Below are positions 1 through 51,786 of a stretch of 64,000 bases of DNA, one piece after another. Position 1 is the stretch's first letter, and every line of letters starts with the position of its first letter. The position numbers and the translations under genes were made by a program. The notes below the pieces were generated by a model. That model saw only the letters and a list, made by a program, of their open reading frames with translations, was not told where the DNA came from and did not search any database. This DNA is from Siniperca chuatsi (Eukaryota > Chordata > Actinopteri > Centrarchiformes > Sinipercidae): NCBI RefSeq assembly GCF_020085105.1, contig NC_058042.1, forward strand, positions 10,243,501 to 10,307,500. The letters run 5' to 3'.

Positions 1-1809
1 AGTTACGAAGCTGCATGGATGAGGAAAACAGCAGGTGAGCTGCTCAATTATAGATTTCCATGATGTTTATCCACAAATTCAGAAAGGCCTGCTTTCTTTT
101 GTTTGTGCTAAAGGGAAACACTGCTGACATTCAGCTTTAAAATATATAATGTCCTGTCCAATGTTTTGTCCTGTTTTATGAAATATACACTCCTGTCTCC
201 CTGACCCAGAAACACAAAATAACAGTTTTTCTGTGATGTCACACCAGCACAGGAATCCATCAACAATCAATGAGTGGTATCATTTTTTTTCTTGATGGCG
301 ATACATACAGCATACACTGTTAATAGGTCAGAACTGATAGTACTGCTACAAATATAAGGTTAACGCTGTTGTTCATATTCAGAATAGTACCACGAGACCT
401 CAAGAATCAAGTTTAATAATAGGTATATCTACACATATAATTGAAAAAAATTTGTTTTGTTTGACTTTCAACTGATCTTAATTGAGAACATACTGTATGT
501 CTGTATTACTCTTTTATTTACATGCATATACTGATGTAAACACATCTTAAACACCATCAAAAACATTCATGACTTCAGTTGTTTTCTAGATTTTGTTGTT
601 GTCTGGTGTTAGTCTAATGTGATAAAAGACATGTTAATCAATTTGTGAGTGATAACATGTTCCAGTGCTGTATCTGAATAGTGGTCATGGGGCTACCCTT
701 TTATTTACATTTAAATCACAGATTGTGCCCTTAGGAATACGCTCAAGAGTAGTAGGCCACTCCAACAGCAAGACATGCCAGCCCACCACAGAAATGGGCA
801 ATCTGCATGCAAAATAAGAATGCATTTGGGTGCACAGGTAATGCCGGGACAAAATCACTCACCCTCCACCGCGGAGACCTGGGTACAATCCCTGATACTG
901 ATACCTTTGGCTTGGTCGTGCATTCCCAAAAAACCCACCAAATTTGCCAGTGCTTGTGGATGGGAAGCCAGTGAGGGGCTCATGTCCTTGTTGCTGCACT
1001 AGCGGCCCCTATTGGCTAGTTACAACACCTGCATGGAGTGGGGTGGGATCTGGGGGACTTTACACGCACTGCATGGCTGATGACACCGGCAATGGCAATA
1101 GCACTGAGATAAGTGCAGTACAAGAGAATTGGCTATTCCAGAGTGGGCAGAAAAAAATAGGACAAATAATAAATAATCAAAGAAAATATAAAGAATGTTA
1201 TTAGATGTTGCTATCATCTGTCACTAGCAAACAAATCTGCTGTAGAGGAGCTTTATTTCTTACATTATCATAAAATTATCTAAAAAATTATTCTACCATC
1301 CGGTGGAGTGTATGAAAGATTGTTTAGACCTCAAATAATGACTGATAGTTACTATATGAAGCAAACTGATAACAGTTTCCCATTTTCTAAATGGTTTGCT
1401 AAATGTCAAGCCAAACCCTAAAATAACACACAAGAGACACTGCAATCAAAGTGTTGTGTTTATAGGTTGCCAAGACACAGTTGTATGGCTACAGTGGATG
1501 CCTGGTGATTTACCACAACAGCAGATTCTCATGAGTGTGTGTTTCACTTGAGATCAGATCAACACACACAGAGATACATACATGTACAGTATGCACAGTT
1601 TATCAGACACCTTATAGGATAAGCAAAACACCTCAAGTGCACTGAGTTCTGTGTCTGGTTTGATGACAAAAGGAGAAGATAACCAAACGGGCTACTGGGA
1701 GGAATTTCAGGCACACAGCAGTTTTTTTGGTGGCTTGTCTCTTGCCATGTCATAGCGGTTTCAGATCAGAGGTCTCTGTTGAAAGAGAAGCTGTCATTAT
1801 TTTATGATG
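1..1809. other. Non-coding spacer upstream of the USP50-type gene
   Basis: Apart from the SINE-like repeat at 828-1000, no coding exon, RNA gene or clear promoter was recognised here. Reading frames are short and carry no family motif. Non-coding 5' exons and the promoter of the downstream gene may lie here, because a splice-acceptor-like tract sits at 1810-1820. Confidence 0.5.
828..1000 (+). repeat. SINE-like, tRNA-related repeat (degenerate copy 1)
   Basis: A stretch with CACAGGT, a CACTCACCCTCCACCGCGGAGA core, and a degraded RNA polymerase III B-box-like GGGTACAATCC, followed by GGGAAGCCAGTGAGGG. The last motif and the order of blocks recur at 41295-41440, so this is a dispersed family. 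The tRNA origin is inferred from the box-like motifs, which are better preserved in the second copy. Confidence 0.5.
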
Positions 1810-1835
1810 GCTTTTTCTTAGACCAAGAGGCTAAG

Positions 1836-3091
1836 ATGAAGGCCAAGGCTTTGTCAGTGAGAGAGTGTACCTGGATGTCAGAGGAGTGCCACCTAGTGGA
1901 TGAGCTGCATGGAGACTCCAAGAGGGACGGCCTGTGTTTACCAAACATCTTCAGGTCCAAAAAAGTGAAGCCGCTCACTACGATTCAGACTGGACCCACT
2001 TACCAGGTCTACTATACAGCCAGGGAGCTTCTGCTGGAGGTGCTGGACAGAGGGGCCGTCCGGGAGCTGATCAGGAGAGCTGCCAGTGTGAAGGCAGGAG
2101 CTAACCGTCCGTCATACAGCCAGAGCAGAGAGCAGAGTGCAGATCTCTCTGAAGGGGAGTATGCTGAGGCGTTAACATGGTTCTCTATCGTCCTACAGAG
2201 CGGTCTGTCTGTAGGAGAGAACTGCAGCTTTGGCTCTGAGCTGACCCTAAAACTGGATGGATGGCAGGGTGTTCTGAAGAGAAACAGCTTCCAGACCAAC
2301 CTCTTGTCTCTGACCAGACTGGAGGATGGAGACAAGTTGGAAGCCCTCTCTGCTTTCTGTAGCCACGTAACCAGACGCTACCAGGCCTTATACACACCTG
2401 GTCACAACCTGGCTGTGAAGAAATACCAACTTTCCTACGGGCAGGGTCTGTGCTCTCTCCATCTTGCCCTCCTCTGTGACATGAGCTCGGGGTTAATCTG
2501 TAACATCTATTTGTACTGTCCAGAGCAACTCCTGAGGCAGAGCGGGAAACCTGTAGTTGAGCAGGTGGTCGGACAACTGCTGAGACCTTTCTGCAGCCAT
2601 AGATACACGGTTCAGCTGGACAGCTCTGCTTGGATGGAGGGCAGACTCACTGATATCTTCTCTGGCTTAGGGGTGGATCTTCATTTTGTTCCAACTGTTA
2701 AAAGGCCAGTCTTGGACCCAACATCACCTCCATCTCCACCAGTCATGCCGCATCAGCTCCAACGAACATCTGAGGACTCACTGTGTCAACTTGCAGCCCA
2801 TCTGCAGGGCTGGACCGGACCTGCTCTGTTTCCTCTGTCAGACCTGAAAGGATCAGTGGCAGATGTGTTTCTCCCAGGCCTCTGGGCGACGCTACACATC
2901 ATCTGCATCAACACATTTATGCTCCATACTCTGCAGAGCCAGGGCTCAGGCAGGCAGGTCCACCTGACAGAGTTCACCAGGACTCTGGCCTCTAAGCTGG
3001 CCGTGGACAGCAGCATCACAGTGCCTGTTCTGCAACAGCTAAACAGCAGTTCATACCAAGAGAAGAGTTTAACAAATCTTTCCAAGCAAAG
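1836..3091 (+). other. piggyBac-transposase-derived exon (domesticated, catalytically broken)
   Basis: This single large exon encodes about 418 residues without a stop. Recognisable piggyBac landmarks in order: an N-terminal helical block ([10 protein letters not shown]), [14 protein letters not shown], the strand [18 protein letters not shown], the block [11 protein letters not shown], a late [10 protein letters not shown] helix and [10 protein letters not shown]. The Asp that normally follows LYTPG...V is replaced by Lys (K195). The second catalytic Asp seems kept (D262). The region that would carry the third Asp is shortened and no equivalent was found. No terminal inverted repeats or TTAA flanks were identified. 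The exon ends in a GTTAGT donor at 3092 after two bases of an Arg codon, and the USP acceptor exon at 3982 supplies the third base. A weak alternative is an independent piggyBac-derived gene using the stop at 3159-3161 and the AATAAA near 3361. Confidence 0.72.
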
Positions 3092-6000
3092 GTTAGTCTT
3101 ACCGTTCGTTCTAGTGTTTCAATTCAAGATAATAATAGCCTTCATGATATTAAATGTTTGAAAAAAACAACAACTAAACAAACAGAAAAAAGGACAGCAA
3201 AAACAGTGGTACAGTGATAACTATTTTTGATCTGATCTCGAAAATATTTGTATCAAGGCTAACTGTGGAAGACTCTGTTATTTTGAATTGAATTCAATTA
3301 ATTTCAGTGCAACTTTAGTTGATTTCAATTCAATATGACTGTTCGAGTTAATCTACAACAAATAAACAATGGAGTGTGGAATTAAGTTCTCATCATTTAA
3401 TTAAGACACCGTTGGGCAGTAATGTATGTGCTATTAATACAGATTCTAACAGTATATTATGTACAAAGTGCAAGTGAGGAGTAAGAAGATACAGTACACT
3501 GTATATAAAAGGTAACAGTGCAGTACTCTATCAGTGTAAACTGGGTTGATATTTTTAATATCAGCTGCAACTAATGATTATTTTCATTAATAATTAATAT
3601 GATTATATAATTATTTTTTCAATTAATTGATTATTCATTTGGTCAATAACATTTCAGAAAATAGTGAAAAAGCCTGTCACAATTTCCCAGATCCCAAGGT
3701 GACATCTTCAAAATGCAAATATATTCAATTTACAATTATTTAAAACAGAAAATACTCAGTCGAAAAGCTGGAGCCAGCAAATGTTTGACATGTTTGCTTG
3801 ATAAATTACTTAAATGCTTAATTATCAAATTTGTTGTAAATTAATTTTCTGTTGATGAACTAATCAACTGATCTATTCAACTATAGAAAACATATTTACG
3901 GTTTTTAATTTTGTGACTACTATATTAAATTATGATACAATGCACAGGAATAAGGTTATGGTTTTGTCACTGGTCTTGCAGGACAAATACTATGAACTGT
4001 GGTCAGATGATGGAAAATGAGAAACGAGGTCGGAGTTCTGCAGTGAGGCTGCAGAGGTGGAACAGACCAGGAGTGCGCGGTTTGGACAACTCCGGCAACT
4101 CCTGCTACTTAAACGCTGTGTTACAGTGTCTGTGTTCCACTGTGCCCCTCGTGGAGCACCTCCTTAATCACGACACTCGCAAAGAGCTGGCAAGGTAAGA
4201 CCACCCCACCATCTCTTTCTGACTCACTTGAATGTTGGCAGTCATGTTTTCCCACTGGTTTAACCTCTGTTCCTGCAGGTCTAAGTGCCGGGTGGCTGAG
4301 GTGTTTGTGCGCCTGCTGGAGGAGATGTGGCTGGGAAGGAGCTCCAGCTGTGCACCTGTGGAGGCAAGGTCTGTGCTGTGCTCCATCCTCCCCCAGTTCA
4401 ACAACTACTCCCAGCAAGACGCCCAGGAACTGCTGCTCTTTCTCCTCAACGCACTCCACGACGACCTCAAAAAGGTGCAGCGACATCTATCACATCTGCA
4501 CCATCACTCATCACGTAGCTCTCTGTGGCAGATCACTACACCGACAGAAAGAGTAAATCTGTGTGTGTGTACCCGTTTACCAGGTTGCTAAGCGCCAGAT
4601 GCGTTCCTCAATGCAACAACAGAGACAAGACCAGAATAGAAACTGTGCCACTGCAGCGGGGGAGTCCACCATTGTCTCACATGTGTTTGAGGGCCAGCTG
4701 AGCTACATGACCCTCTGCATGCACTGCGATCACCAGGCACACAGCACACAGACCTTCACTGTACTGTCACTACCAATTCCAACAGACATCATTAAGTGCT
4801 CCATTCAGGTACCTTTTAATAGTTGCAGGTGCTTGCAGCTCCCATTCAGCTTCCCATTAAAAACATCATCTGACTGTATGCACGTCATATTTTAGACATT
4901 GGTGGTCTTGTTCTGTGCTTTCTCACAATTCTGTCTTTATGTTGTGCAGGATTGCCTGTCACTGTTCTTCAAGCAGACTACCCTGTCCGGAGGAGAGCAG
5001 ATGCTGTGTTCAGTGTGTGGGCTGAGGAGAGAAACAGCAGTCCTCACTTGTATGGACAAACCTCCCGAGATCCTCATGTTGCACCTCAAACGGTGGGCCG
5101 AAACGTAACATTATCTGTTATCATTATAGTAAGGGTACATGTTTAATTGAACAAATGCACAAGATTTAAAACTTAAAACTTGAATCACTATTGATACAAC
5201 AATCTCACCTAAAAGGTCCACTTAGTAGCTGGTCTGGGACTTTCCATCATATCACATGATCTTCATAAGAACTTTGTCCAGTTGCAATAGAAATGTAAAT
5301 GTTCAAATTTCCATTTTCTCATTGCAAATTAATAACTTTTAGTTCATGTTGGCTTAAAAATTTAGTTTCAAACTTCAGTCTTGACCTTGAAAGCAGCAGT
5401 TGACAACACTATCTCATCTAATCATCATTCAATTTATGACTTACAGTTGAGTCGTATGATAATAAACATAATCAAATTAGCTGTGAACCAGAGCGCCTTG
5501 TTCAGCCTCATCAAAAACAAGACAGTTCCTGAATCTTTTCTACCTACAAAGTATAATTCTGCTAAAGAAACTTTGGTCTGCTCACAATGATAAACTTCTA
5601 TTTTGCCTTCTAATAGTCTGCTTTTGCTCTTTAGTTATGCATTCACAAAAAAACGTTATAAGTGTCATGACGACATTATACAAGCATGGATATTTATTAG
5701 ACTAATTGATAAACAAAAACCATTAATTTAAGCAGCCGTTCAGTGGGCAGAAACCATCTTGTTAATGAGAGAGGTCAGAGAAGAACTGCCAGACATGCGG
5801 AAGCTAAGAGAAAGACTATAAATACTCATTTGATGACATTTTAACTATGGATGATTTAACAGAGTTAACATTCATCAAGTGGTGGCCCATTAAGCGTTCA
5901 GTACACAAACTAACAGTGCCTTGAGCGTGTATTAATATTGAGCCACAGACCTTCACAACCTATCGTGTTTAGTCATGCATTAATTCAAGGAGAGTCATGC

Positions 6001-7232
6001 ATTCTTTATGCACTAAAATAAGCTACGTGTTCTATTACGAAGTGCTACTACGTCTAAATACCCGGGAGAGCTAATGTTGTGGGTATTATTAGCTGTAATA
6101 TTTTCTTAAATCAATGTGATCTTTATTTCTTCTGCAGGTTTGGTTGTAAGGGGAAGAATCAGGTGAAACTGAGGACTAATGTTGTGTTCTCCATGAAGCT
6201 CGATCTCACCACGTTTCTATCCAGCTCGGTACCTCACACCTCATATTCTTCATACCACCTATATGCTGTTGTGGTGAGTAACCACACACATATATTAGAA
6301 ACCCTAATTACTAAATGAATTGTTGAATCATTTTAAAAAGGTGAAATACCTTTTATCTGTCGCTAAATTGACAGCAGTAAATTTTATCAGCCAATAACGG
6401 CTGATTATTTAAATCTGGAAGGTGTAGTTAAGACAATTTTCGTATGTTTAACATTGTGTTGCTGCACCGTTGTAGTATGGGCCGATGTAATAGTCTCGAC
6501 CTAAAAATAACTTGACATGTAAAAACTGACAAAATCTGTCACCATTTAATTATTATTAGTTTTGCTAATAGGCTTTTCATTTTTTATAACATGAAAGCTT
6601 TGGTTCTGTGATTTTGTAGTTTATGGAGCACATCATTATTCCATATTTTCACATATTTTTTTGAGATGGCAATGGAGTTTTGACCTTGTTAACAATTTCT
6701 GTCTTTTCTATCTTTCCGGGGACTTTTCATCTAAATCAGTGGTTCTCAAACTGGAGGGGGGGCGTAGAGCGACTGTGGGGAGTCATTGATGTTGAACAGA
6801 CCTAAAGTTGCATGAATATGATTCATGTGGTGACATAAACAAACAAAAGTGCACTGATGCTAGCAAGGCTATTTTGCTAACCTGAATCTTGTTTATTTCA
6901 ATCGCCTGTATTGTTAGCGATTACTACAAATTAAATCCAATTTTGCTGGGGTGGGGGGGGGGCATTAATGTTAATTTTCTGAAGGGGGGTGTGACAGACA
7001 AAGTTTGAGAATCACTGATCTAATGAACTCTTTCCTTCTCTAGAACCATACAGGTCATCTGAACATGGGTCACTACACAGCTCTGTGTCAGAACGCCCTC
7101 ACCCAGGCATGGCACTGTTTTGACGACTCAGCGGTCAGAGAGGTACAAGACAGCCTTGTGCAATCTCCAAATGCCTACATGCTGCTCTACAGTCGCAAAC
7201 CCTTTCAAAAGCCAAACATCAATGGACTCTGA
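1836..7232 (+). CDS. usp50: USP50-type ubiquitin-specific protease with a piggyBac-transposase-derived N-terminal domain
   Basis: Predicted exons: 1836-3091, 3982-4194, 4279-4474, 4584-4808, 4950-5092, 6138-6273, 7044-7232; 785 residues, in frame throughout. Residues about 420-785 form a peptidase C19 (USP) domain: Cys box [12 protein letters not shown] with C460, QQDAQE block, two Cys-x-x-Cys zinc-ribbon pairs, HLKR, and the His/Asp box with H733 and D750/D751. Mammalian USP50 matches in length of this domain and in WLG, CSI/LQ and AYxLxYS motifs. Residues about 50-410 resemble a piggyBac DDE transposase and come from one exon. The ATG at 1836 is the first in-frame ATG, in good context, 16 bases after a splice-acceptor-like TTTTTCTTAG. 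The gene is tail-to-tail with USP8, as in mammals, and an AATAAA lies at 7403. Mammalian USP50 has been reported as catalytically inactive; here Cys, His and Asp are all present. The USP exons are secure. That the large first exon belongs to the same mRNA is inferred from matching phase and needs transcript evidence. Confidence 0.82.
3560..3885 (+). repeat. Dispersed teleost repeat, copy 1 (in intron 1 of the USP50-type gene)
   Basis: Begins GCTGCAACTAATGATTATTTTCATTAAT and continues with ATTTCAGAAAATAGTGAAAAA, GATGA/GGTGACATCTTC, AGCTGGAGCCAGC and a closing TAATTTTCTGTTGATGAACTAATC. A copy in the opposite orientation lies at 63357-63705. The same block order is a widespread fish repeat; its class is not decidable from this window. 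Confidence 0.7.
6737..7017. mobile_element. hAT-type MITE in the last intron of the USP50-type gene
   Basis: The 281-bp element starts CAGTGGTTCTCAAACT and ends AGTTTGAGAATCACTG, which are inverted copies with one mismatch. These are the terminal repeats typical of Charlie/hAT non-autonomous elements. The flanking 8-mers ATCTAAAT (6729-6736) and ATCTAATG (7018-7025) match at six positions and look like a decayed 8-bp target duplication. The element has no coding capacity. It ends only 26 bases before the last exon at 7044. Confidence 0.85.
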
Positions 7233-8969: not shown

Positions 8970-19075
<10,106 letters not shown>

Positions 19076-28267: not shown

Positions 28268-31200
28268 TCAGAGCCTGATTTTTCCCTCTGTGATGGAGTT
28301 GAATATCTCCTGAGTCATGGGTACGTAGCCCTTATTGTCCTCCAGGTAGAACAAAGGGTCCCAGATGATGGCAGGGTTGAAGCCCTCCTCTGCCAGTTTC
28401 ACCTTCATTTGCTTAAACGTCCCAGTTACTACCAGTGCATCCTAACAGAGAGAAATAAAAGTTTAAACAAGGGTTGCAAGACATTTTCAGTCAAATTCCT
28501 GATTGTTTTAGATGTCATAATCTTGTAAGTAAATTCAGCAGGACTTTGTTCACCTGTATGCGTAAGAAACGTGGTCTTGCATAGCTGGGGAGGTAGTTTT
28601 TGACATGCTGATATGCAGCTTTGCCGTCAAAGTTCATGTTTTCTTTCAGCTTCACTGCGGCCATTCCAATTCTTCCCTCGTGTCCTAATAAGTTATGGTC
28701 AAAGTAAAAAGAGGAGATATTTCTTTATGTCTTTCATACTATCGCAAAGTATATGAGCACTTTTTTCAAATACATGCATTCCTGTTTCAAATTCTTCTCA
28801 ATTTCAATATTTTTAAACTTCATTTGCAGGATTACATGGTTCATAATTACAATGATTAATGACTAATGGGAATGTGAAAGTCCAAGAGGTCTTACAAAAC
28901 CTTTAAAAAACCCAAATAGACTCAAACATATATAGTGGTGAGATGAAAGGCTTTTAGTAAAATGTTGTATTTTGGAGATACACATTTTCATCCACATGAG
29001 ATCTTTCTAATAACCTTATCTAATTAGTATGTCCTTTATACGTCTTAAATCATTGCTAATAATATAATTATTACCTGGCACCTTCACACCATAGACATTA
29101 GCCTCCTCAATGCAGTCCACCATGAGCAAATGATCGGCCACCTCTGTGGTTGCCACATTTTCTCCTTTCCACCTGTATTCGATGACAACACAAAGACAGT
29201 ATGTGCATAACTTAGCTGCAATGTTGTCATGTAGCAATGGGAACAGTTTGTCATAATTTAGATACAAGCATAGTCTGACAAAACTTTTTTTGATTTTCAG
29301 AAAATGCTGAAATAATAATTACATGAAGATTCTTAATTTTACCAACTACAAGGGATAAAATATTGAAAGTAAAACAGAATAACCAGGGTGTCTGCAATTC
29401 CTGAAATCTGAAAAGTTGATAAAACTTGCAGGGATTCTGGATAAAATACATCTACAAAAGGTCAACCATCTTACACATTTCAGGCTTTGTTCTGCCTCTG
29501 ACATTGTTATCTAACCAATAGTAACACTATTTCCAGATGTGGGCTCCTTGTCTCCATTATTTACTCAGCTTGTCAAATTTGTACAATTTGTTTCATCCAC
29601 GGACCTGAAAGTGTCTCCAATGCGGTCTTGAAAGAAGACAAATCCCTCATTGTCTATCTTTAGAAGGTCGCCACTGTTAAAGTATAAGTCTCCCTTCACA
29701 AACACGTCTCTCAGCTTCTTTTTCTCTGTCTGCTGCTTGTTCTTAGCGTAGCCGGCGAAAGGTGTTCTTTCTCCGATCTTTGCCACCAACAAACCGGTCT
29801 CTCCTGCAGGTGAAAGCAACAAGCAAATATGTATTAGTAAGAGCTAAAAGGTCAAGAGAGAAACATATTTTTGGAGGAGACTGGCTCACCTCTGGGGACT
29901 TCAATACAAAATCCTCTGGAGTCTTTGACAGGCTCCTCTTTCTCCGTGTCATACCTTATGAGGGCATATGGACATCCCATCTGAAACACAACAAGAACAA
30001 CAAGAATAAAACATATGGAAAAGAATAAAGTTATAGTAATCAGCCATATAAATAATCTTGTTTTGCACATTTAAATTCTTACTACTTCAGTTTATATACT
30101 ATTTATGTTGTAATGGTGCAATTAGCACCTGTAAAAGTTTAATTAAAAAAAGTCCAGCCAACCCTGCAAGTTCATCCCATGGTGTTAAATGTAACCTTAC
30201 AACAAAATACTGAAACTTATTTGCATAAGGGACAAATAAACAGCATTTATCCCCCTCTCTTACTTTGTGGAGAAAATGCTCTTTGCCAATAGCTCCAACT
30301 TTGCCGACATAGTTGACAAAGCCAACATTTCCTTCTGTCGCTCCGTAGCATTCACAGATACGAATGTCCCCAAATCGCTGCAGGAAGTCAGCCCAGGTGT
30401 CGGCCCTTATCCCGTTCCCCAAAGCCAATCGGACTTTATGATCTCTGTCATTGTCTCTCTACAGGAGAGTGAAGGAGTGGAGAGAATAGGATAATAAACA
30501 CCACATTATGTTTCCCTTTGGTCTTGAGTAGAAGCAATGTGCCATGCAAATATCATTAAAAACTATTTAAGCTGCTAATAAATTTACCAAAATATTGTTG
30601 GTAATAATGCTAAAACAATATAACCATATGTGATATTATCCTGAGGTTTACCTTTGGTGTGTTGCAGAGGTAGCGCATAATTTCTCCTATGTACTGAACA
30701 ACAGTCACATTGTACTTTCTACAGTCATTCCAGAAGTGGGAGGCAGAGAATTTACGTCTTAAAACAACAGTGATGCCTAGAAATGAAGAGGCACAGATTT
30801 CAGCCTCACATAATCTCACACTGAGAGCTCAGTAAGTGTTGTAAACGTGTGACCTTTTGGACTTTGAAATATAAACAGTGGAAATGAGAGCCAAACTGCC
30901 AGTTATTTGAAGTCATACACCTGTTAGTTTAACCTTTAGTAAACTCATCAGAATGCAGTCTGGAAATCATGTTTTGCAGTTGTATCATGCCATGAATTAC
31001 CTTTTTCTATGGCTCCACACAGTCCCATCAGAAAGCCAGCACTGTGGTAAAGAGGCAGGTATACATAGATGATATCGTCTGAGTGTATACCAGCAACAGC
31101 CTGAAGAAAAGATGACATCCATAGCCTCTCGTGGTTAATTACAGCTGCCTTGGGAAGCCCTAAAAGATAACATCGCCATTAGAAGCGGACGTAGCATATT

Positions 31201-33421
31201 TTTATTGTCCTACTTCTGCTGCTCAAGGCCTGCACACTAAAAATACGAACGCAGATTAGAAGTGAAGGTCAGATTACCAGTGGTTCCTGAGGTGTAGATG
31301 TACAGAGCAGGACTCTTAATGTTAATGTTGGCCCTCAGCTGAGGTGACAGAGGCTGGTCTGAGGCCTGCTGAATTTTATCAGAGAGGCTTTCAATGCCCT
31401 CCACAGCACAGTCCTCACTGAGGATAAACACACGGATGCCCTGCTGGTTCAAAGTGGGCAACACCTCCTCCACAGCCCCCTGCAGGTCTGAGAGACACAG
31501 GCAAAAGAGAGCTTCATGCAGTGACAACAGAAATGGGAAAAAATATTTATACAGATGTGGAGAATCATGGGAATGATGCCCAGCGTGGGATGAATAGACG
31601 TTTAACAGAAGTTTAACAACTGACACTAAATTAATGTCAGAATACTTTATTGGTTTGTTGAAACAAAAAAGGAAATTGATTCTCAACACATTAGCTGATA
31701 TCAACATATTGTAGATATATTGATATTGGTGTATTTGTCAGGCATGGACGCCCTGAGGGGCAAGTGAGAGAAAAAATACTGATGGTGATCCAGGTGATCC
31801 ATTTTCTAAATAGTTTTCTCCTCATGTTTATGACTTAAGAACAACAAAAACAGGTTTTGCCAGGATAATATTCCTTAAATTCCTTTCAAAAAAATTCTTC
31901 TGTGAAACAGGTGGAAAAAAACAAGTTTTGCTAGGATATTTTTTTGTTTTGTTTGTTGTTGTTCTCCATGCACTCCAAACACAAGGTACATATGTTGTGT
32001 GTTAACAAGTTATGTAACATTACTGTCATGTTTTTCATTTGGCTAGAAATGTATTTTAAAATCAGCACTTCACATGAAAACATGAATGCTTTAAGTCCTA
32101 TTTAGAACATTGGGTAGTGGTTCACTTCAGTCTCTTGTGGCCAAAATGAGTATTAAAACAACAAACCCTTGATCCTGACAAAGAAAAATTTCACCTGTTT
32201 TCAAACATGAAAAAAACAGTAATTTAGAAAAAAAAAAAATTCTTTCACCTGTTTCACAGATTAACATTTTAAGGAACTTTATCATGGCAAAACTTTTTTT
32301 CACCTGTTCTTAAATCACCAGACTTAGAAAATGGGTCACCAGATTTTTTTTTCCCTCACTTGACTCTCAGGGCTTCCTAGTAAGGCAATAATTATCAAGA
32401 AATTGCAGTACAGAAATGTCAAACTAGGTTTGAGGTAATTATGTCGCCATTACATAGTCTATCAACTAGAGAGAACTGATTTGGCTTAAGTAAATGTGTA
32501 CTGTATAATGTCTCACGTAGTATGTATCTTGGTCACTTTTTTTTTTTTAAGTATTTGGATTTAGTGGCTTCTGGTGTTGAAATTACAGTTTGCAACCATT
32601 TGAATACTGCTCGCCCTTCCAAGTGTGTAGGAGAAACTAAGGTGGCACTAAGGTATTCACAGGAGGATACAAATTTAACAAAATTGATAATTTATCAAAG
32701 AAGAAGTATTCATTCACGCATTAGAGTCCTTTAAGTGTTAATGAACTCGTATCTTTAATTTAAATGTATGTTTATGTGACAATATTAATGACTTACAAAG
32801 GGAGGTCTGGAAAACCACGTATTCCTAACGCAACACTAGACAAATTAACTCGTGCAGAAAACCTGAAATTCATGTCATAATCACAAAGAGGATAATGAAA
32901 ATAATAATAAGACTATATCAGTCTTATTTTCCCAGCTTACCAGCACCAGTGACCAGGACCTTGGCTTCACAGCAGGAGAAGCAGTGCAGCAAAGATTTGG
33001 ATCTGATGTTGTAGTTCAGTAGAGAAGCTGTGCATCCCAGCTTGGCCAGTGCGAGCCAGATCCACACGAACTGCGGCTCGTTGCCCAAGTAGAGGGCCAC
33101 CGTGTCTCCCTCCTTCAGGTGGGCATGCGCGGACAGAGCTCTGGCCACTCTGTTGCTTTCTTTGTCTGCTTGGCTGTAAGTATAGGAACTTTCCTCGAAA
33201 AGTATAAACTTCTTGTGCGGCTGCCTCGCCACTTTGTCCAGAAAACAATCCAAAATACTGTAAAACGGTTTCTGCTTCTTGAATTTGCCCATTCGCATAG
33301 CGATTTGAATGGCAGTAACCGCGTAGCTTAAATCTTTCAGAAAATAAGGATTTCTAAAGTAAATCAATAATGGCAAAAGTGCCAAACCTGTAAGGGCGGT
33401 ATATAGAATATATGCGAACAT
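28268..33421 (-). CDS. slc27a2: Very-long-chain acyl-CoA synthetase / fatty-acid transport protein 2 (FATP2)
   Basis: Ten exons on the minus strand: 32941-33421, 31278-31487, 31001-31159, 30652-30776, 30264-30458, 29890-29980, 29605-29803, 29075-29172, 28554-28684, 28268-28441. They join to 620 residues, the same length as human SLC27A2. The product activates very-long-chain fatty acids to CoA thioesters and aids fatty-acid uptake at ER, peroxisome and plasma membrane. Landmarks: hydrophobic N-terminal anchor ([19 protein letters not shown]), AMP-binding P-loop YIYTSGTTG (about 223-231), YGATEGN (363-369), the FATP signature [13 protein letters not shown] (about 486-498) and [10 protein letters not shown]. 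The C-terminus KIRL resembles a weak peroxisome-targeting-like KxRL end. ATG at 33421 is the first in the frame and starts the membrane anchor. It is convergent with HDC and in tandem with the paralogue upstream. Assignment to family member 2 rather than 6 rests on length, motif similarity and synteny with HDC. Confidence 0.93.
31750..32373. mobile_element. Fold-back (long inverted repeat) element in slc27a2 intron 1
   Basis: The left side GCCCTGAGGGGCAAGTGAG and the right side CTCACTTGACTCTCAGGGC are inverted copies, and homology continues inward through CCATTTTCTAA, TTAAGAACA, GTTTTGCCA.GATAA, TCCTTAAA and CTGTGAAACAGGTG on both arms. Arms are about 170-185 bp. There is no coding capacity. 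Boundaries are approximate and no target duplication was settled. Confidence 0.7.
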
Positions 33422-33519
33422 TATAATCAGGAGATATGTGTCAGTCCTGCAGCTGAGTGTCCTTTAAGTTTCAACAGCATAAAGACAGTTGAATATTTGC
33501 CTTTCCAGTTTACGCCTCT

Positions 33520-33532
33520 TGAACTTTGAACG
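33520..33532 (-). promoter_or_regulatory. DR1-like (PPAR/HNF4-type) site upstream of slc27a2
   Basis: The minus strand reads CGTTCA-A-AGTTCA, two related nuclear-receptor half-sites spaced by one base, about 100 bases upstream of the ATG at 33421. Such DR1 elements bind PPAR/RXR or HNF4. Mammalian SLC27A2 is a liver/kidney gene of PPAR-alpha-linked lipid metabolism. Binding is inferred from the motif alone. Confidence 0.4.
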
Positions 33533-33979
33533 AGTTTCTCCTCTGGGTGGTGTAACAAAAGAGCCCCTATGTGTTCCTGGGTCCAAACAAATTCTGCAAC
33601 TACTGCCAACAGTGAAATGTTGATGACCTCTCTGTGAAATTAGTCTGTGACTAATTTGCTGTCTGTTTAGAGTATGCCAATCAATAAAGAGAAAAAAATA
33701 TACATTAAAAATAGTTTTTTAAATTTACAAAACGTATTTATATGAAGGCTGGGAAAATTGCCCTTGCATAATAAATTAAAATGACCATAGAAAGCAGGGG
33801 GCTATAGTCATTGCAACACATTTGTCATTAGTATATCTCCCCTTATGCCTAATGTTAATGACCCTATTGTCACCTTATGCAAGGGCTCCAAAAATCGTTC
33901 CTCATCATTGAGACATGTAATTTAAACGGAGAAAATTATACTTACATTGTACTTGTTTTGCACCAAAATACCAAAGCAA

Positions 33980-34027
33980 ATTCCTTGTATGTGTAAATCT
34001 ACTTGGCAATAAAGCTGATTCTGATCG
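33980..34027 (+). mobile_element. LINE 3' tail fragment
   Basis: ATCTACTTGGCAATAAAGCTGATTCTGATC has the ATAAA plus TGATTCTGAT ending typical of teleost non-LTR retrotransposon 3' ends. Only the tail is present; the clade cannot be decided. Confidence 0.5.
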
Positions 34028-34499
34028 GCAGTAACAGTGAAAACAAGCTTGATGACCTTTATAGCTATAAAATCAAAGATTAACCTCCTGTGAATCTCTC
34101 CATCTTTTTTAATCTAAAATGGCAAACTAATCATAAAAGAATAAAACCACCTTTTCTTCCATCCGGATGATTGAGACACTGTGCATATTACACTACAATT
34201 ACACAGCTGTTGCAGTTTTCTGAGGATAATGGATTCAAAGGTTTTGAAAGGCAGGGCCCGGCGGGAAATTACTCACCGTGTCATTACTGTTAGGTCTTTT
34301 ATGTCTGGTCTGTTTTATTATTTTCCTGTACATAAATTATTTGCCATTGTTTACTGAGTGAAAAAGTGACATTTGAACTAGTAACTGATTGGAACTGACT
34401 GATCTTGGCAGTATCGTACAAGCTGTTCTTGCATCAGTTTATGAGGGGGGCTGAACAGAAACGCTGTCCAAGTCAGTGAATAATAAACACAAAAGCATA

Positions 34500-34925
34500 A
34501 AAGGCAAAAGGTATGCAGACACCCCTGTCCACATACTTTTGGTTTGATGCTGTTTTTCATGGTTTGGTCCTCTTCATTCCACCTAGAAATCTTAGTGCTT
34601 CAGCATACAAGGATAGTTTGGACAATAATTCCAACTTTGTGGCAACAGTTTTTTGTTTTATGTTTCGACATGACAATGCCCTGATCAATAAAGAAATGGT
34701 TTTCCAGTTTGCTGTGGAAGAATTTGACTGGCCGGCACGAAGTCCTGACCTCAACCTCGTCCTACACCTTTGGGATGAACTGGAGCATCGACTCCGAGCC
34801 AGGCCTTACTACTAATCACTAATGCTCTAGTGGCTGAATGAGAGAAAATCCCTGGGTGTAATTTTCAGGTGTCCACATTAATTTGTTTAACATTTTTGTC
34901 CATGTAGTGTATATAGTCTACTGTA
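34500..34925 (+). mobile_element. Tc1/mariner transposon relic
   Basis: A reading frame at 34513-34815 ends with EEFDWPARSPDLNLVLHLWD then ELEHRLRARP, the conserved C-terminal part of Tc1-family transposases surrounding the last catalytic residues. Nearby ASAYKDSLDNN and RHDNA blocks also fit. The start of the transposase is missing and internal blocks are deleted or out of register, so it is a dead 5'-truncated copy. The 3' side ends ...TTTTTGTCCATGTAGTGTAT near 34912, resembling a Tc1 terminal sequence. It lies between the two slc27a2 genes. Confidence 0.85.
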
Positions 34926-35713
34926 TATCCCAACTACATTGAGGACTGAGACTCTGGTAGCATGTGCATTTGTCTCCACCTTGTGGTTTTTCCACGTCTG
35001 TCACACCTAGAATTTGTCTTTGTATTGTTGTAACTGTGATCAGTCAAATCAGAGCAGACATGCACGTGAAAACTAGTTCTGGTTTTACGATAACAATCAC
35101 TTTAATTTTTAGGAAAGTAATTTATATTTACAGATATTGGCACATAAATATAAAATTCATATTAGGCCCTGTTCTACGTGCTACTCACGTCTTTCCTAAA
35201 AGCAAAGTATTCTGTTAGGTACATCAGATACTACCTGTGAGAGGAAGTCCAATAGCCACTGTCTTATAGTTAGTTCTCCATGGAGACTGTCAGATGCATC
35301 TCATTAAACTACACTATCCGTTTCTGTGTATGGTGTCTTCGCTGCGATAGGAGACACCCCCCGCCATCCCAACAGCAACACTTCTCAACACCATTATTAG
35401 ACTTAATAAAGTAAAAGCAGCAGTCCCCATTCTGGAAATCCGTCATCATGCTAGTAAATACACCATTTATATCATCACTTGCCAGTAAATATACCATTTA
35501 TATTATCAAACTCCCTCCTCCCCTTGCAGGTGGACTCTGGCCCCTGACATGAATCCTTACAAATGAATCCTCCACTTCTGATTTCCATTTACTGCTTTTA
35601 ATAAAAGGTGTTCATGTCTCCATATTATTTTACACAAATTATGAGTATTAGTAAAAATGCATATCATGCATATCAATGCAACCAGACATTATTAGTGAAC
35701 ACTAAGAGCCTAC

Positions 35714-44534
<8,821 letters not shown>

Positions 44535-45239
44535 GTTTTCTCGTTTAAAAGCCACAAGGTCCTGGGAAAAAGTGCAGCCCCTGCTGCAAAATGGGGAATG
44601 TTACAAATAAGGATTTTTTTTTCAGTGGGGCGGGGCATTTTCCCAGAAAGTAAGTTCATAGAAAAGGGCAAATATTTTAAATAATTTGGAATACCGATGA
44701 TTGAAGGGAAGATTGCTCAGCAGCAGCTAAAAGCTGCTTTTATTGCCCAAAAAATAGGAAAAGAAGGAAGTGATCTTCAAACTTTGGTTTACACAACTGA
44801 TCAAGATTTATTTAGAGAGCAACAAAGTTAAAGGATGGAACACAAAATAGCACACACATATCTCTCACACTTAAGGTCAGTGTCAGGGTCAGCTGAAAAA
44901 GGCTGTTGAGGTTAAACGATGTAAACAACACTTTGCAGCTTGTGCGGAATCAGTTGATGCAGTAAGCGGAGCCGCAAATGCAAACGTAAGAGTTTGACCA
45001 TTTAATCTGACAAAAAATAACATTTTCTCTGATCATTACAGTAAATGAGCCTGTATTATTCTTTCATATACAGTTTGGCAGTTTAGTGCATGTTCCCAAC
45101 CCAAGGGTCAGGTTCCCTCCAAAGGGACATGAAACTAATCTGTGCGGTGGAGAGATGATAGTTGGGTTGGTAAGAAGAAAATCAAAGTTCTGCTACACAG
45201 ATATATATTTGTTAATTTGACTTTTCTTTTTTTATGAAA

Positions 45240-47851: not shown

Positions 47852-51786
<3,935 letters not shown>

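Follow-up and report, generated by a model that had tools for sequence, protein, structure and literature searches.

A catalytically dead piggyBac transposase domain as the probable N-terminus of a USP50-type deubiquitinase in Siniperca chuatsi

The capture of transposases is a known route to new vertebrate genes. In CSB-PGBD3 and in SETMAR, the transposase lies behind the host part and the partners act on chromatin, as described in extracts of the papers concerned (PMC2268245, PMC3459987, PMC3902484, PMC12062965). The splice acceptor of PGBD3 stands 7 bases before the first methionine and the moth piggyBac has a similar layout, for which the authors use the term exon trap (extract of PMC2268245). 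As for the deubiquitinase side, human USP50 is presented in the extract of PMC11405836 as a protein without acidic catalytic residues that binds ubiquitin conjugates and has a role at the replication fork without catalysis, and USP50 is listed as missing in a zebrafish survey (extract of PMC2809080). Among the matches listed in the open-licence literature, we found no paper on a transposase-USP fusion and none dealing with USP50 and piggyBac together; a survey of domain co-occurrence uses neither "UCH" nor "deubiquitin" in its main text (PMC12062965).

We studied a locus of Siniperca chuatsi lying in a stretch of 64,000 nucleotides (NC_058042.1, positions 10,243,501 to 10,307,500), hereafter the window, for which the original prediction proposed that a USP50-type gene had captured a transposase exon. 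On the evidence presented below, a long-domesticated, catalytically dead transposase domain probably constitutes the N-terminus of a USP50. The features of the locus are collected in Table 1.

Table 1. Features of the Siniperca chuatsi locus, in window coordinates
Feature	Position	Strand	Basis and remarks
Probable splice acceptor CTTTTTCTTAG	1811..1821	+	sequence; codon-score peak; layout like the piggyBac elements of PMC2268245 (extract)
Transposase-derived exon	1822..3091	+	ATG 1836; 418 whole codons + two bases; Pfam DDE_Tnp_1_7, coding score
Intron 1 of the fusion model	3092..3981	+	890 bases, 28.8% G+C, phase 2; donor AAG/GTTAGT, acceptor CTTGCAG/GAC
USP exon 2, Cys box C460	3982..4194	+	splice model, USP8 alignment; in-frame ATG 3992
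USP exon 3	4279..4474	+	splice model; inside USP8 alignment
USP exon 4	4584..4808	+	splice model; USP8 alignment
USP exon 5	4950..5092	+	splice model; USP8 alignment
USP exon 6	6138..6273	+	splice model; USP8 alignment
USP exon 7 and stop	7044..7232	+	His box H733; FDD 749-751 including D750, D751
USP8, part (outer exons not delimited)	9668..16030	-	convergent neighbour and paralogue; frames, splice phases, USP8 matches

The plus-strand frame that holds the exon is open from 1683 to 3161 (492 codons stop to stop) and has its first ATG at 1836. The exon contains no stop in 418 codons, against 12 to 24 in each of the remaining five frames, which upholds the earlier claim of an exon open throughout with some 420 intact codons. 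When random substitution was simulated at 0.1 changes per site, the exon frame was still open in 10 of 2,000 cases. Searching the whole genome (718.8 Mb, 65 contigs) at E <= 0.001 returned the exon itself and nothing else, both with its protein (2 candidates scored) and with its DNA (1 candidate). A piggyBac family model, for which 116 of 470 candidates were scored, matched at least 125 stretches elsewhere in the genome, some of them pieces of one copy; the exon itself was absent from the matches to these scored candidates, so that copies as diverged as the exon could be missed by this model. A recently active transposon is ruled out, since no second copy of the exon was found in the genome by protein or DNA. 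The exon has a G+C content of 52.8%, as against 51.8% for the USP exons and 28.8% for intron 1, and a codon score of 0.153 bits per codon versus 0.119 for the USP exons; the training frames excluded USP50, were cut stop to stop and contain some intron. Taken alone, the codon score is weak evidence because one reverse frame of the exon reaches 44.4 bits, compared with 63.8 bits for the true frame. In collections of prokaryote and virus contigs, which do not cover fish, the exon protein had 38 and 12 pattern matches and the USP part 12 and 7, none of which was confirmed.

To judge by sequence homology, the exon encodes a divergent transposase domain of the piggyBac type. Pfam DDE_Tnp_1_7 matched its residues 132-264 with 29.6 bits (E 5.5e-7), above the cut-off of 22.4, in agreement with the piggyBac-like character first ascribed to it, and gave 27.9 bits in the joined 785-residue protein. 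Thirty piggyBac loci were retrieved from this genome, and a profile based on 10 of them scored the exon at 20.0 bits (E 1.1e-8, for a single sequence), with a second, very weak match of 0.5 bits at residues 349-391; 200 shuffles of the exon protein reached at most 2.2 bits and its reversed copy no more. With the longest frame of each of the 30 loci as target, BLASTP gave 6e-5 at best, with about 23% identity, and phmmer E 0.0028 at best against the same single frames; a phmmer search of the PDB with the exon protein had no match at E up to 10. A maximum-likelihood tree was computed with 18 of the 30 loci, the 12 dropped having mostly shorter or broken frames. The exon is isolated in it, on a branch that measures about 3 changes per site and is too long, the composition being deviant as well, for a placement among the piggyBac clades. 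Two other loci of the tree, L020 (G000:C9:418090-419175) and L004 (G000:C5:17156864-17158000), have long open piggyBac frames of 595 and 676 amino acids and are sisters with a support of 100/100. In L020 the second catalytic Asp is missing (YLASS) and the terminal CxxC motifs are kept, which makes this locus a second candidate domesticated piggyBac gene in this genome.

Several features of a transposase are lost from the exon. The position of the first catalytic Asp is occupied by K195 in both the MAFFT and the profile alignments, the second is kept as D262, and the third corresponds to D336 by MAFFT or to A342 when aligned by eye with the help of known piggyBac motifs, in a stretch that the profile does not align. 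A block of 13 residues that follows the first Asp in the relatives is deleted. Of the cysteine-rich C-terminal domain nothing was found, there being no CxxC in the exon and no cysteine-rich tail in intron 3092-3981, where two of the three forward frames have one isolated CxxC each and the third none. The exon is piggyBac-derived but encodes no working transposase, its set of three catalytic Asp residues being incomplete. The original prediction had held transposition unlikely on account of at least one replaced Asp (K195) and a third that it did not find, and to these are now added the missing 13-residue block and cysteine-rich tail. AlphaFold, run without an alignment, returned a model of a confidence too low to count (pLDDT 38.5), in which the elements at 193-277 follow the order E-E-E-H-E-H, the order of an RNase H-like core; K195 falls on the first of these strands, and D262 comes after the fourth. 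Of the nine inverted repeats in 600-4000, a perfect one (1550/3227) and one at 92% (1168/3627) have their arms on either side of the exon. The perfect one, of 13 bases (1550-1562 and 3227-3239), may flank the exon by chance, and no TTAA lies directly outside it; the original piggyBac ends could have decayed.

The 5' end of the exon revealed an element absent from the original prediction, the acceptor CTTTTTCTTAG, whose last base is 1821 and which lies 14 bases ahead of the ATG. Beside this acceptor, at the codon that begins at 1821, the cumulative in-frame codon score reaches its maximum. Since the acceptor ends just before the ATG, a further leader exon probably exists upstream of 1822. The next gene upstream, on the same strand, we take to be MAPK6-like from its sequence; the last of its frames stops about 11.6 kb away.

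At the other end, the splice model joins 1836-3091 to the six USP exons of Table 1 in a frame of 785 amino acids that has no internal stop and closes at 7232, with GT..AG at six of six introns. It reproduces what had been claimed for this junction, namely a donor two bases into a codon, an in-phase join to 3982 and a product of 785 residues. According to an approximate weight matrix, the donor at 3091 belongs to the top 0.9% of plus-strand GT sites (34/3,803). It is the only candidate above 1 bit between 2900 and 3165, and the last 129 bases would contain an equally good in-phase donor with a chance of about 0.02, by the same approximate matrix and for a stretch chosen post hoc. A T at +3 of a donor, as in GTTAGT, is uncommon. 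The codon score peaks at 3032 and falls from 3033, 59 bases before the donor, and at the same position the G+C content drops from 58% to 37%. The mean score per codon is -0.30 for the 19 codons at 3033-3089, which immediately precede the donor, and -0.18 for the 23 that follow it. Base use therefore does not mark 3091 as an exon edge. The Cys-box exon, too, begins with 18 codons whose score is near zero. In the fusion model, the exon tail from 3033 would be a loose linker; alternatively, a separate gene could end here.

The USP part of the joined protein matches Pfam UCH at 2.4e-58 and has USP8 as its best match in the PDB (5.7e-63). In the alignment to the USP8 structures 8XPN and 2GFO, C460, H733 and D750/751 are kept. 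A second USP50-like Cys-box exon was not found in the genome, where seven other matches, USP8 among them, have 43-58% identity. The gene at 9668..16030 we take to be USP8, in part from the USP8 matches of the USP part, and the name USP50 is likewise our assumption, in part from the USP8 neighbourhood. Farther along the window, the minus strand carries at 29019-44600 two or three tandem genes, which we presume to be SLC27A2-like (fatty acid transport protein), and beside this array lies at 48733-51630 on the plus strand a presumably GATM-like gene. At three matching places, the introns of USP8 have phases 2, 2 and 0, identical to those of the USP50 gene; we assigned these phases by visual inspection of the GT/AG sites, using only the donor side for the third. 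The phase-2 intron precedes the catalytic Cys by about 44 codons in USP8 and about 41 in the USP50 gene. Because the phases match, the acceptor at 3982 looks like that of an old family intron, the upstream partner of which looks to have been coding and to have ended in phase 2, and the exon fits this description. Adjoining USP8 and having intron phases in common with it, the gene would qualify as the USP50 orthologue. USP50 of Siniperca chuatsi may still be an enzyme, as the FDD motif and the His box are kept, unlike what is described for human USP50. A short USP-only form could start from the in-frame ATG 3992.

If the tail of the exon were the end of a separate gene, the locus would hold two neighbours, an independent domesticated gene whose frame stops at 3161 and whose poly(A) signal lies at 3361, and a USP50 with a promoter inside the "intron" and with either another upstream exon or ATG 3992 as its start. 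This arrangement is the chief alternative to the fusion and the less probable of the two. The frame does continue to 3161, the codon score and the G+C content drop at 3033 and not at the donor, and an AATAAA is present at 3361 and a TATA-like TATATAAAAGG at 3502; piggyBac elements have such a poly(A) signal just 3' of their frame (extract of PMC2268245). However, signals of these two kinds are presumably common in DNA of 29% G+C, the 300-base windows from 3051 to 3651 have at most 31% G+C with no cysteine-rich stretch in any forward frame, and two separate genes would leave aside both the good in-phase donor near the end of the frame and the upstream coding exon ending in phase 2 that the phases of USP8 predict. 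That the exon is optional, and that an internal promoter yields a USP-only short form besides the fused long one, as CSB and CSB-PGBD3 come from one gene, we regard as very improbable: the TATA-like site at 3502 and ATG 3992 would suit it, but the former is perhaps there by chance. Least credible of all is a relic, a transposase fragment open by chance and neither selected nor used, which would agree with the degeneration of the exon (Asp lost, block and tail deleted) but not with its lack of stops despite great divergence, with coding-like base use across most of its length or with the failure to find sister copies in the genome.

Capture of the transposase exon by the USP50-type gene is the best-supported reading because of the coding score, the single copy, the in-phase donor and the phases of USP8. 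With respect to the original prediction, the frame, homology, phase, coding score and single copy speak for the capture and the donor is not marked by the codon score; the fusion in mRNA and the selection that would have kept the frame open are what we infer. In the proposed scheme, a piggyBac element would have landed long ago upstream of a fish USP50 gene or in its first intron. As in other piggyBacs, a splice acceptor would have stood immediately ahead of its ATG and made its uptake as an exon possible. The donor at 3091 lies close to where the transposase core ends, ahead of the expected position of the cysteine-rich tail, and would join in phase 2 to the old acceptor of the USP8/USP50 family at 3982. 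In the resulting protein of 785 residues, the dead transposase domain would precede a USP domain that retains its catalytic residues. The transposase part would most likely be a scaffold for targeting or dimerisation and so determine the place or the substrate of deubiquitinase action; the simplest scheme is that of a dead folded core that would dimerise or bind a partner and thereby place the USP. The wider proposition, of a transposase-fronted deubiquitinase in a fish lineage whose ancient dead piggyBac N-terminal half redirects a USP described as a non-enzyme in humans, we put forward tentatively. The DNA or chromatin binding suggested originally for the new domain has become a weaker proposal, given the lack of a cysteine-rich domain, the near-neutral character of the transposase domain (net charge +2, pI 7.9) and the fact that human USP50 reaches chromatin, partly via its ubiquitin-binding face, without a transposase part (extract of PMC11405836). 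Specific binding of transposon ends by the exon product is unlikely because the cysteine-rich domain is lacking and the net charge is +2; charge alone is not decisive, as the intact piggyBac frame of L004 is acidic.

If the fusion is real, a transposase placed ahead of a ubiquitin protease would add to the kinds of partner and to the ways in which transposases are captured. The locus resembles CSB-PGBD3 of primates, in which a domesticated piggyBac frame with an acceptor just before its ATG is joined in frame to a host gene (extracts of PMC2268245 and PMC3459987). There, the transposase is entire, forms the 3' terminal exon behind the host exons and is at least 43 My old (same extracts), whereas the Siniperca exon would be a 5' one, before the host enzyme, degenerate and without a cysteine-rich tail. 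With PGBD5 it would have in common the status of an ancient, single-copy, piggyBac-derived vertebrate gene, PGBD5 lacking three of four conserved Asps, but the transposase domain of PGBD5 extends over seven exons and is not described as fused in the extract of PMC3902484. SETMAR is likewise a transposase joined to a chromatin enzyme, but it involves a mariner transposase, placed behind the host exons, with DNA binding kept (extracts of PMC3902484 and PMC12062965). Finally, human USP50 is also a USP8-like paralogue beside USP8, with several differences: its 339 residues leave no room for a transposase part, it forms a head-to-head pair with USP8 where the Siniperca pair is convergent, and it is said to be without the acidic catalytic residues, where the Siniperca copy has FDD and His (extract of PMC11405836). 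Were the fusion confirmed, the fish gene would offer a natural comparison with human USP50, described in the same extract as a pseudoenzyme at replication forks.
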